A DNA stretch of 64,000 nt, from the NCBI RefSeq assembly GCF_031624635.1, contig NZ_JAMQOQ010000001.1, forward strand, positions 248,001 to 312,000, in the 5' to 3' direction. The first letter of the stretch is position 1. The number at the start of each line of letters is the position of its first letter. The translations under genes and the position numbers were made by a program. This document shows, piece after piece, positions 25,977 through 29,431 of the stretch. The stretch comes from Halogeometricum sp. S3BR5-2 (GTDB lineage: Archaea > Halobacteriota > Halobacteria > Halobacteriales > Haloferacaceae). The notes beneath the pieces were generated by a model, which saw only the letters and a list, made by a program, of their open reading frames with translations, ran no database searches and was not told the DNA's origin.

Positions 25977-26034
25977 TACACTCTGGTATTCGGACTGGTA
26001 TAGATTCTTGTACTTCCGGAACGACGGGAGAGAT

Positions 26035-26391
26035 ATGTACGGCCGCTCGCTGTTGACGCTGGAGGGGACGCCCTTCGCGGAGGGTGAGTTCTCGCGGTTG
26101 TGGCTCCTCGCCGCCGCGACGTACGGCGTCGGCGACGTCGTGACCACCATCGCGCTCATCTACTTCAGCGCGTCCGTCGACGAGGCGAACGTCTTGGTCC
26201 GTTTCGCCGTCGAGTCGTCCGGACAGGTCGGACTCGTCGGCCTCAAACTCGCCGTCCTCCTCGCCTGCATCGGCATCAGTCTCGCCGCGGCGAACGACGA
26301 GGACGCCTTCTCCTACTACCTGCCGCCGGTCGTGCTCTCCGTCGTCGGCGCGTTCGTGACGGCGTACAACGTCCGTCTGCTCCTCGGCTGA
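26035..26391 (+). CDS. Small multi-pass membrane protein
   Basis: A 118-residue protein with three hydrophobic stretches: LWLLAAATYGVGDVVTTIAL, VGLKLAVLLACIGISLAAA and LPPVVLSVVGAFVTAYNVRL. It resembles haloarchaeal small membrane proteins of the DUF5658-like type, function unknown. ATG 26035 is preferred over a TTG 27 nt upstream. Confidence 0.65.
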   Translation: MYGRSLLTLEGTPFAEGEFSRLWLLAAATYGVGDVVTTIALIYFSASVDEANVLVRFAVESSGQVGLVGLKLAVLLACIGISLAAANDEDAFSYYLPPVVLSVVGAFVTAYNVRLLLG

Positions 26392-26473: not shown

Positions 26474-27337
26474 TCAGCGCTGCGAGAGGACGACCCGGAC
26501 GTTCACCGTCGTGGTATCGCTCTGTATCTCGTTTCCGGCGACCGGGTCGACGCGCCACTCGATGTCGAGCGCTCGCGTCTCTCCCGGCCGGAGCGTCGCC
26601 GTGCCGACGTCGGCGGCTTCGAGCGCCGACAGGGGAACCCACGTGTCGTCGTCGCCGACGAGGTAGTCGTCGCCGACGGAGATGCGGACGGCGACGGCCG
26701 ACGACAGTTCGCCCTCGGCGCCGTCGTCGCCGGCGTCGCGTTCGGGTTCCAGCAGTCCGTTCTCCCGGTCGACGACGTCCGCGACGCGCACCGAGAGGTC
26801 GCCGGTCTCCCTCCCTTCGTTGTGAGCGGATAGTCGGACGGCTCCGTCCGAACCCGGAACGACGCCGTCGAACCGGAGCGACTCGGCGGCCGCGCGGCCG
26901 ACCGCGAGGTCGACCGGAGCGCGCTCCCCGCCCGAGTCGTCGTTGTCGTCCGCGCCGCGGTCGCTCCTCCCGGCCGTGCGTTCCGTACCGGCGACGGAGT
27001 TCCCCGTCGACCCCTCGTCCCTCGAGGCCGACGGCGTCGACGGGGCGTTCCGGTCGACGGCGTCTCCGCCGCCCCCGTCGCCCTCCGTCGCGGTCGATGC
27101 GTCGCCGAGCGAGTTCGACCCCGCGGCGGGCGTCGAGGTCTCCCGTCCGCTCGCGTCGACGCCGCTGGCACCGGACGGCGTCACCGTCGCGGCGACGTCC
27201 GAGGCGACGTTCGCCCCCGAGTCCCCGCTCTGCAGCACTCCGACGCCCGCGCCGCAGAACACCGACAGAACGACGAGAACGGCGAGGCTCCGCCGCCCGA
27301 AGGGCCAGGTGAGTCTCCCTTCGACTCCCCCGCTCAT
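26474..27337 (-). CDS. TasA/CalY-like secreted protein (distal gene of SipW locus)
   Basis: A 287-residue exported protein. An N-terminal hydrophobic segment (SLAVLVVLSVFCGAGVGVL) is followed by a long Ser/Thr/Asp/Gly-rich linker to about residue 145, then a beta-sandwich-like domain. That domain shares with the 28346-29431 protein the run D-x-ENG-x-x-E-x-E and the C-terminal PVAGNEIQSDTTTVNVRVVL pattern, both typical of haloarchaeal CalY/TasA-type proteins. Its ATG overlaps the stop of the upstream gene (ATGA). It may be an anchor or minor subunit of a surface fibre; this is inference. Confidence 0.65.
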   Translation of the reverse strand: MSGGVEGRLTWPFGRRSLAVLVVLSVFCGAGVGVLQSGDSGANVASDVAATVTPSGASGVDASGRETSTPAAGSNSLGDASTATEGDGGGGDAVDRNAPSTPSASRDEGSTGNSVAGTERTAGRSDRGADDNDDSGGERAPVDLAVGRAAAESLRFDGVVPGSDGAVRLSAHNEGRETGDLSVRVADVVDRENGLLEPERDAGDDGAEGELSSAVAVRISVGDDYLVGDDDTWVPLSALEAADVGTATLRPGETRALDIEWRVDPVAGNEIQSDTTTVNVRVVLSQR

Positions 27338-27756
27338 TCTCCGCCCTCCGTCGGTACGGTTCCGGTCGGTTCGGCGCCCGTCGGCTCCGGGGTCGCGGTC
27401 GCGTCGGTCGCAGTCGTCGGCTCCGGCGTCGGAGTTGCCGACGCTTCCTCCGCGGGCGCGTCCGTCGCCGTCTTCCGTTCGGTCGCCGTCTCCGTTCCGG
27501 TCTCGGTCGACCGCTCGCTGGTCGCCGAAGCACCCGAGGCGTTCGTGCCGTTCCTCGCGGACTCCGACTCGGTCTCTCCGCCGTCGCCGGCGACTGCGGT
27601 CGGCTCGAACGTGCCGACGCCGACGGAGACGACGGCGCGCTCTTCGTCCGCGAGCGCGCCGTACGTGACTCCCCCGCCGACCACCGAGAACACGACGGTG
27701 GCGACGACGAGCAGCGATAGCCGGGTTCGGAACCGGTCGCACGACTGGTCGCTCAC
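27334..27756 (-). CDS. Short secreted protein with SipW-type signal segment
   Basis: A 140-residue protein. After RFRTRLSLLVVATVVFSVVG comes GGVTYGALADEERAVVSVGVG, which resembles the cleavage region of SipW substrates (TxAYFSDxE). The remaining 80 residues are Thr/Ser/Glu/Ala/Pro-rich and probably disordered or glycosylated; no beta domain is visible. It overlaps sipW by 4 nt at its start and the TasA-like gene by 4 nt at its end. It could be an assembly or stalk protein of the same system. Confidence 0.6.
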   Translation of the reverse strand: MSDQSCDRFRTRLSLLVVATVVFSVVGGGVTYGALADEERAVVSVGVGTFEPTAVAGDGGETESESARNGTNASGASATSERSTETGTETATERKTATDAPAEEASATPTPEPTTATDATATPEPTGAEPTGTVPTEGGE

Positions 27757-28283
27757 GCGCTCTCCTCGGTTTCCGCGGCCCTGTAGAGGTCGTACAGTTC
27801 GCTCCCGCCGAGGAGGACCGCCGGCACGACGAGGAACAGCAGCGAACCGAGCCTCGTTCCGGCGAACGCGACGACGTACCCGACGTACGGGAGGTGGAAC
27901 GAGACCGCGCCCACGACGTCGTCGGCGGGGACTAGTTCGGGGTCCGCCTCCTCGTTGGCGTCGCCCTTCGTCCGGAAGGCGCGTTCGCCCCCGTCTTCGA
28001 CGACGGCGGCGACGCGGTGCGTCACGAGCGACGAACCGCTCCCGGCGGCGAGGTCCACGCTCTCGAACGTTATCACGTCTCCTTCGCCGATTTCGGCGAC
28101 CGGACGGTCGGCCACGAACACGACGTCCCCCGCGTCGATGGCGGGAGACATGCTGTCCGAGAGGACGACGTAACTGTGACTCGCGCCGGCCAGTTGCGGC
28201 ACGGCGTAGAGGACGAACGGGAGGACGGCGAGTGCGAACAGCACCAGGGCGGCCGTCTTGGCGGTATCGGTATGAGGTGTCAT
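27753..28283 (-). CDS. sipW: SipW-type signal peptidase I
   Basis: A 176-residue membrane serine protease. A transmembrane helix (about residues 11-33) leads to the catalytic Ser44 in VLSDSMSPAIDAGDVV. The general base is His89 in LVTHRV, so it has the Ser-His dyad of archaeal/ER-type signal peptidases (and of SipW) and not the Ser-Lys of bacterial type. TKGDANEEAD is the family's third box. A second helix lies near residues 145-160. Flanked on both sides by SipW-type substrates, it is probably dedicated to them. An AT-rich promoter-like stretch lies at 28284-28310. Confidence 0.85.
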   Translation of the reverse strand: MTPHTDTAKTAALVLFALAVLPFVLYAVPQLAGASHSYVVLSDSMSPAIDAGDVVFVADRPVAEIGEGDVITFESVDLAAGSGSSLVTHRVAAVVEDGGERAFRTKGDANEEADPELVPADDVVGAVSFHLPYVGYVVAFAGTRLGSLLFLVVPAVLLGGSELYDLYRAAETEESA

Positions 28284-28345
28284 CGTTTGAATATGAAAAG
28301 TGTCCTATGAAACGTTCTGATGGATGAGAACCGCGCCGAATCGAC

Positions 28346-29431
28346 TTATTCCGCGGCGTCGATGAGTAGTTCCACCGGTCCGTTGTTGCCGTCGCCGGTG
28401 TACTCGAACGTCACCGTACCGGTGAGCGTCAATCCGTCGGAGCCGTCGAGGTCGCTGAACTCAACGTACTCGCGACCGCTGTCGCTCTCCAGCGTGTTCG
28501 GCAGTGCCGCCGCCCCGTCGATGGAGAGGTCTTCCACCGTCACCGTCGCACCGTTCTCCCGCGAGGAAGCGATGAGCGCGAGTCGGGTGAAACTCCCCGA
28601 GTACGTGTTGGTGACCGAGTAACCGTTCGACGAGAGCGTGGTCTCTCCGTCGTCGGCTATCTCCAACTCGAAATCGTAGCTCTCGCCCGACTGGTACGTC
28701 GAGGCGTAGCCGCCGGCGGAGAACGAGGCGTCGGCGGTGGACTGGCCGCCGTCCTTCAGGCGCAGGTCGTAGTTGCCCTTCGACACCTTTAGCTCGGAGC
28801 CGAAGACCTTCTCGTAGGACGTCTGCGGGAACCCGGTCCCCGTCTCGCCCTGCGGGTTGTCCGTCTCCTGCGTGAGCGACAGCGTCATATCCGCCGTCAC
28901 GCGGTCGCTCTGAACGGCGTTCCCCGCCGTCACGGGGAGGTGCCACTTGATGGGGATGGTCAGCTTCTCCCCGCCGTTCAGCGTGTACGACGGGTACGAC
29001 TGACCCTCAAGGTCGCTGAGCGTCTTCCACCCGTTGCCGGGAATGTGCACTTCGAGGTACTCCGAGAGCTCCCCTTCGCTGTCGCCGTCTTTCTCGCTCT
29101 CGACCTCGCTCCGGCCGTTCTCGTAGTCCTGAACGGAATCGATGCTGCCCGTGAGCAACCCGGCGACGGTGCCTGCGTTCTTCACCGTGATCTTTTCTTG
29201 CCCGTCGTCCCCGGGCGCGATACCCTCTTCGTCGAGAATCGTTACGACGCCGTTCTGGCCGTTGACCGTCAGGTCGAGAGTGCCCGCCTGCACGTCCGCC
29301 TGTACGCTCTCGCTGTCGGAGAACAGTGCCATCGTTCCCGCCCCTGCCCCCGCGGACGCGAGGCCGATGGTGCCGAGTCCAGCCAGAATCTTGCGCCGCG
29401 ACAGTTTGATGTTGGTGTTGTTGTCTGCCAT
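28346..29431 (-). CDS. TasA/CalY-like secreted protein (main candidate fibre subunit)
   Basis: A 361-residue secreted protein. The signal region SRRKILAGLGTIGLASAGAG followed by MALFSDSESVQADVQAGTLDL is a textbook SipW-dependent signal with a twin-Arg-like start. The first beta-rich domain (residues about 45-190) carries the CalY hallmarks QDYENGRSEVE, GELSEYLEVHI and HLPVTAGNAVQSDRVTADM. A second, Gly/Ser/Tyr-rich beta domain (about 205-361) is an addition compared with the minimal TasA/CalY of about 200 residues and might be a carbohydrate- or cell-binding module. It is the promoter-proximal gene of the leftward locus, 62 bp before sipW. Start MADNNTN is chosen over an in-frame codon 12 bp upstream. 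Confidence 0.78.
   Translation of the reverse strand: MADNNTNIKLSRRKILAGLGTIGLASAGAGAGTMALFSDSESVQADVQAGTLDLTVNGQNGVVTILDEEGIAPGDDGQEKITVKNAGTVAGLLTGSIDSVQDYENGRSEVESEKDGDSEGELSEYLEVHIPGNGWKTLSDLEGQSYPSYTLNGGEKLTIPIKWHLPVTAGNAVQSDRVTADMTLSLTQETDNPQGETGTGFPQTSYEKVFGSELKVSKGNYDLRLKDGGQSTADASFSAGGYASTYQSGESYDFELEIADDGETTLSSNGYSVTNTYSGSFTRLALIASSRENGATVTVEDLSIDGAAALPNTLESDSGREYVEFSDLDGSDGLTLTGTVTFEYTGDGNNGPVELLIDAAE

Follow-up and report, generated by a model that had tools for sequence, protein, structure and literature searches.

Known TasA-type and archaeal fibers

In its fibrous form TasA polymerizes through donor-strand exchange (PMC9674648); the filaments are started by TapA, which donates a TasA-like N-terminus (PMC10151520). 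The tapA-sipW-tasA operon of Bacillus subtilis combines a TasA-like subunit, a dedicated SipW peptidase and an accessory protein whose N-terminus is donor-like and which also has flexible regions (PMC10151520, PMC9674648). A comparable arrangement, sipW-calY-capP(bc1280)-tasA, is found in B. cereus, where the TasA-like subunits are accompanied by an assembly factor that is partly disordered; the accessible part of its description (PMC13082335) regards the camelysin-family protein CalY as a subunit of matrix filaments, gives CapP a DUF4047 domain as well as repeats by which it is kept at the cell wall, and reports no acceptor-only membrane protein. Archaeal homologs of TasA have been mentioned in general terms (accessible part of PMC10151520, citing the bundling-pili paper). 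The bundling pilus AbpA of Pyrobaculum calidifontis (7ueg) is a TasA-related fiber formed by donor-strand exchange, while the Sulfolobus threads pair the subunit Saci_0406 with Saci_0405, a putative cap that has a donor strand and no acceptor site (accessible part of PMC9715654). Archaeal donor-strand fibers are known from few thermophiles only, and there is no settled account of how TasA-type fibers are started, held on the cell and brought to a stop.

Against this background we examined a haloarchaeal locus in a window of 64,000 nucleotides, the whole stretch of DNA analyzed. We give a somewhat better than even chance to the reading that it is a TasA/camelysin-type, SipW-dependent surface-fiber operon with its working parts split over three proteins, and it is against the described systems that its sequences, homologies, domain content, synteny and predicted folds can be set. 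It shares with the B. subtilis operon the three components named above and departs from it in several respects: its main subunits bear Tat-type signals and an extra C-terminal domain, its accessory protein lacks the Ig domain of TapA, and it has a separate membrane-anchored acceptor-only protein. From the B. cereus operon, which it likewise resembles, it differs in that last protein and in lacking the cell-wall-retained design of CapP. AbpA matches the predicted fold of the acceptor-only protein, P0004 (probability 0.99), yet is far more distant in sequence, giving no profile match. The Sulfolobus threads offer the parallel of a subunit with a donor-without-acceptor partner, but they are built from another subunit family, no SipW operon is described for them in the accessible part of PMC9715654, and Saci_0405 has a globular domain, unlike the donor-only protein P0003.

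Organization of the locus

Inspection of the open reading frames found the four leftward genes that the first-pass annotation had placed at 26474-29431, all on the minus strand and coding for products of 361, 176, 140 and 287 aa. Genes 2/3 and 3/4 indeed overlap by 4 nt (GTGA, ATGA), with a gap of 62 nt between genes 1 and 2. The co-occurrence of these parts, as first noted, is more than chance; as a unit, however, the four genes were incomplete, for a conserved fifth gene, M, lies beyond them at 26008-26391 on the plus strand. The features are as follows.

28346..29431, minus strand: main subunit P0001, 361 aa, with a Tat-type (SRRKIL) and SipW-type signal, donor-like segment, TasA-like domain and second beta domain
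29270..29323, minus strand: donor-like/SipW segment of P0001, residues 37-54, aligning with the N-terminus of fibrous TasA (8aur)
28862..29278, minus strand: acceptor (TasA-like) domain of P0001, residues 52-190
28349..28780, minus strand: second beta domain of P0001, residues 218-361, resembling choice-of-anchor W (NF041928, below cut-off)
27753..28283, minus strand: SipW-type/ER-type signal peptidase P0002, 176 aa (Ser44, His89)
27334..27756, minus strand: donor-only protein P0003, 140 aa, GTG start, with a Sec-type signal carrying a SipW-like motif, then a disordered Ser/Thr/Glu/Pro-rich tail
27598..27657, minus strand: donor-like segment of P0003, residues 34-53 (ALADEERAVVSVGVGTFEPT)
26474..27337, minus strand: acceptor-only protein P0004, 287 aa, with an N-terminal membrane helix (about residues 16-36), disordered linker and C-terminal TasA-like domain
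26477..26917, minus strand: acceptor-only TasA-like domain of P0004, residues 141-287, best PDB fold matches TasA 5of2/5of1
26008..26391, plus strand: small polytopic membrane protein M, 127 aa, convergent with the P0004 gene and kept beside the acceptor-only gene in other genera

The main subunit and its signal peptidase

Family models, the sequence profile and the predicted fold together carry the kinship with TasA and camelysin that was proposed for the locus at the outset. P0001 passes the camelysin model PF12389 of Pfam (38.5 bits, gathering cut-off 22.5), which is found in 14 of 15 main subunits, and the textbook SipW signal claimed for this 361-residue protein is real, TIGR04088 being passed at 27.4 bits (cut-off 19). 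Its score with the TasA equivalog NF046066, which covers the Bacillus matrix protein, is 24.4 bits against a threshold of 450; judged by sequence, P0001 is TasA-like and not TasA proper. When the main-subunit profile was run against 177,635 PDB sequences, the top two matches were the TasA fiber 8aur (E=4e-4) and the TasA monomer 5of1 (E=1.3e-3), with alignments spanning the donor segment and the first strands. P0001 as a single sequence gave no match among PDB sequences and no relatives in the named genome collection, where the acceptor-domain alignment did recover relatives.

In the structure model of P0001 (mean pLDDT 67) both domains are folded, in keeping with the two-domain main subunit foreseen by the first reading, while residues 1-48 fall below a pLDDT of 50 and the donor segment is unpaired in the monomer. 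The fold search with this mediocre model returned the TasA fiber with the highest probability (0.99), yet only at rank 35 by E-value (5.5e-3). Matches of the same model to integrins and adhesins were set aside as generic beta-sandwich noise because of their low probability and TM-scores around 0.15. An RR pair is present in the signal of 92 of 94 donor-plus-acceptor subunits, which suggests that these main subunits are exported by Tat; proteins 3 and 4 look Sec-dependent.

P0002 passes the archaeal signal peptidase model TIGR02228 (105.7 bits, cut-off 51.85), and the Ser44 and His89 by which it had been recognized as a SipW-type peptidase are invariant in an alignment of 11; with the bacilli SipW model NF046067 it scores 100 bits, under the threshold of 190. 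The genome contains a single TIGR04088 protein and one SipW match in all, both in this operon.

Acceptor-only and donor-only partners

The C-terminal domain of P0004 is, by sequence comparison, a true paralog of the main-subunit domain: it matches P0001 at 34% identity (BLASTP, E=1e-13), and the two families align with a profile-profile probability of 99.9% (hhalign) from residue 52 onward, just past the donor segment. The motifs noticed earlier in the two proteins (DYENGRSEVE/DRENGLLEPE and VTAGNAVQSD/PVAGNEIQSD) are real and, on these scores, fall within a complete homologous domain, although the pattern xVAGNxxQSD as written was slightly off, P0001 having TAGN. The P0004 domain is predicted at a pLDDT of about 92, and its best fold matches in the PDB are TasA 5of2/5of1 (E=7e-5, probability 1.00, TM 0.50), so that the TasA jelly roll is recovered for the model of this beta domain. 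P0004 matches neither PF12389 nor a SipW-type signal, and its family gave no convincing match to Pfam and NCBIfam models. Lacking that signal, it is probably not a SipW substrate; the linker-rich second subunit envisaged at first thus keeps its export and its linker and loses its SipW processing, being better read, from its non-SipW membrane helix, as a membrane-anchored acceptor-only partner. A single membrane helix, followed by a Pro/Thr-rich linker, is present in nearly all core acceptor-only proteins; one Haloferax member lacks the helix because its frame is broken upstream. Single-sequence PDB matches of P0004 to Alr3790 (E 0.2) were taken as chance, and a longer GTG-started frame of 422 aa was rejected: it runs across the region of gene 3 in a different frame, and in the relatives translation begins at the position corresponding to the ATG.

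P0003 had been described as a short disordered helper, which is accurate as to disorder and incomplete otherwise, for it also bears its own SipW-type signal and donor-like segment, detected by a home-made profile model; it falls short of TIGR04088. Beyond the donor-like N-terminus, 94% of its residues are disorder-prone and no convincing domain match was found, so that the TapA layout of a TasA-like N-terminus plus Ig domain is not reproduced. The tails of protein 3-like proteins consist mostly of about 90% Ser/Thr/Pro/Glu/Asp/Gly-type residues. Since the SipW motif overlaps the donor strand, conservation of this segment in P0003 may reflect cleavage alone. Weak Pfam matches of P0003 and P0004 (Consortin, CapC) were put down to chance.

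These comparisons point to three protein classes that the first-pass annotation overlooked: donor plus acceptor (P0001), donor only (P0003) and acceptor only (P0004). All candidates were scored separately with two parts of the main-subunit profile, one covering the signal and donor segment and the other the acceptor. The donor-plus-acceptor subunits (77 distinct) reached 33.5-94 bits with the donor part, the 20 core acceptor-only proteins, P0004 included, at most 6.9 bits with it and 99-206 bits with the acceptor-family profile, and the protein 3-like proteins showed the donor part alone, then a tail. Another group that scored with the donor part only, marked by an RR motif and ordinary composition, was left out of the protein 3-like class; its members probably carry a SipW signal in front of domains that are different or have diverged strongly.

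Distribution and synteny

Matches to P0001 occur in 86 of 148 genomes of the same family, many covering the signal region only. Clusters of these gene types were likewise found in named genomes, including those of Haloferax gibbonsii, H. sulfurifontis, H. prahovense, Halobaculum litoreum, Halorussus marinus, Halobellus, Halobium salinum, Halosimplex pelagicum and Halorubrum, and a same-genus relative (L045) has the same gene order and the same flanks as the locus examined here, a HAD-type hydrolase with a short unnamed gene on one side and enolase-superfamily and formamidase-like genes on the other. Synteny extends across haloarchaea: in a class-wide sample of 292 genomes, 28 of the 32 strong matches to the P0004 domain have a SipW gene no more than 5 kb away. 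Of the refuting conditions listed in the first-pass annotation, those that concern sequence did not come about. Within its own genus the locus is patchy, SipW being present in 1 of 4 other members searched. As seven Haloferax loci lack the donor-only gene and four Haloferax-type loci lack the acceptor-only gene beside SipW, neither gene is obligatory.

M has no Pfam match. Its relatives adjoin the acceptor-only gene in Haloferax, Halobaculum, Halogranum, Halosimplex and genomes of other families, lying within 1.2 kb of 21 of the 32 strong acceptor-domain matches and within 5.5 kb of 25; M is absent from the Haloferax-type loci without the acceptor-only gene (L033, L041-L043). Relatives of M are also found away from such loci in other genomes. 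At the same chromosomal site in Halogranum amylolyticum (L050 6756-7900 / L087) only the acceptor-only gene and M are present, the main subunit, SipW and donor-only genes being missing.

In another family of the phylum, genomes of ~2 Mb carry clusters of Sec-type donor-plus-acceptor proteins, SipW and short donor-type proteins (L113-L116). Two of these clusters encode a protein that joins a signal peptide to an acceptor-like domain and has no donor motif (L114 6923-7510, L115 6409-7020); as the acceptor matches are weak (E about 1e-4, split model), these possible acceptor-only proteins, hinting at an old division of roles, are a lead only.

A proposed mechanism and its alternatives

What we infer for cleavage, strand exchange, the fiber with its polarity, and the roles of proteins 3, 4 and M is as follows. 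P0001 would leave the cell via Tat, probably already folded, with its donor segment tied to the membrane as long as the signal peptide is attached. Because the signal peptide runs straight into this segment, cleavage by SipW would act as a switch, freeing the donor strand to insert into the acceptor groove of the next subunit and thereby gating polymerization. A chain of such subunits ends in an unused donor strand on one side and an unoccupied groove on the other, the strand suiting the acceptor-only P0004 and the groove the donor-only P0003. P0004, anchored and without a donor strand of its own, would take the donor strand of the terminal subunit and fix the fiber base to the cell, probably working with M, while P0003 would fill the groove at the other end as a cap with a disordered, possibly glycosylated tail; alternatively, it may prime assembly as TapA does. 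The general form of this scheme, a three-role donor-strand fiber with SipW-gated polymerization of Tat-folded subunits and without chaperone or usher, which may be ancient in archaea in view of the similar Sec-exported set in the distant archaeal family, we regard as tentative and put somewhat short of an even chance.

The same layout could be interpreted without a fiber, as a membrane-anchored glycoprotein complex in which the donor strand of P0003 occupies the groove of P0004 and so fixes a mucin-like tail, P0001 being a secreted adhesin or sugar-binding protein. The adjacency and 4-nt overlap of genes 3 and 4, the recurrence of this pair in Halobaculum and in L045, the composition of the protein 3-like tails and the second beta domain of P0001 all fit such a complex; nonetheless, P0001 has the donor-plus-acceptor layout of fiber-forming TasA, and the seven Haloferax loci without protein 3 retain protein 4 and main subunits, which leaves this interpretation unlikely, if worth serious attention. 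More improbable still is an export set for unrelated surface proteins, with the N-terminal motif serving only for peptidase recognition and the shared domain a generic beta-sandwich. The overlap of the SipW motif with the supposed donor strand would suit it, as would the SipW-signal proteins in related loci that have no detectable TasA-like domain, but in P0004 and its relatives the domain persists although the SipW motif is missing, and their genes still lie beside SipW (the 28 of 32 strong matches); moreover, TasA heads the PDB matches by profile and, in the case of P0004, by fold. Finally, PF12389 bears the Pfam name Peptidase_M73, under which P0001 would be a camelysin metalloprotease; it has no HExxH, only two histidines and no cysteine, and with CalY of the same family treated as a filament subunit (accessible part of PMC13082335), this identity was rejected as almost certainly wrong.

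Under the fiber-operon reading, the locus offers a candidate base, subunit, primer or cap and processing enzyme in haloarchaea, and the acceptor-only class gives a reading for a widespread unannotated haloarchaeal gene group. No published description of this haloarchaeal set, of the acceptor-only anchor or of M was found in the literature searched, which was incomplete. Haloferax relatives of genetically tractable strains carry the locus, so the question of anchoring is open to simple deletions and point mutations.

Other clusters

Several Halobellus/Halorubrum-type loci are larger and more varied. In L096, L099-L105 and L107 (Halorubrum and others) the clusters are bigger, with several Tat/SipW-signal proteins of 450-650 aa and SipW genes with long C-terminal extensions (frames of about 330-480 aa). 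Near Haloferax-type loci without the acceptor-only gene, a short membrane-helix protein with a disordered tail was seen twice (L033 10483-11106, L042 5564-6013), the tail ending in MCTV in both. The haloarchaeal acceptor profile also recovered two TasA-like SipW-signal proteins from the actinobacterium Pseudonocardia nigra (L097 143-1437).
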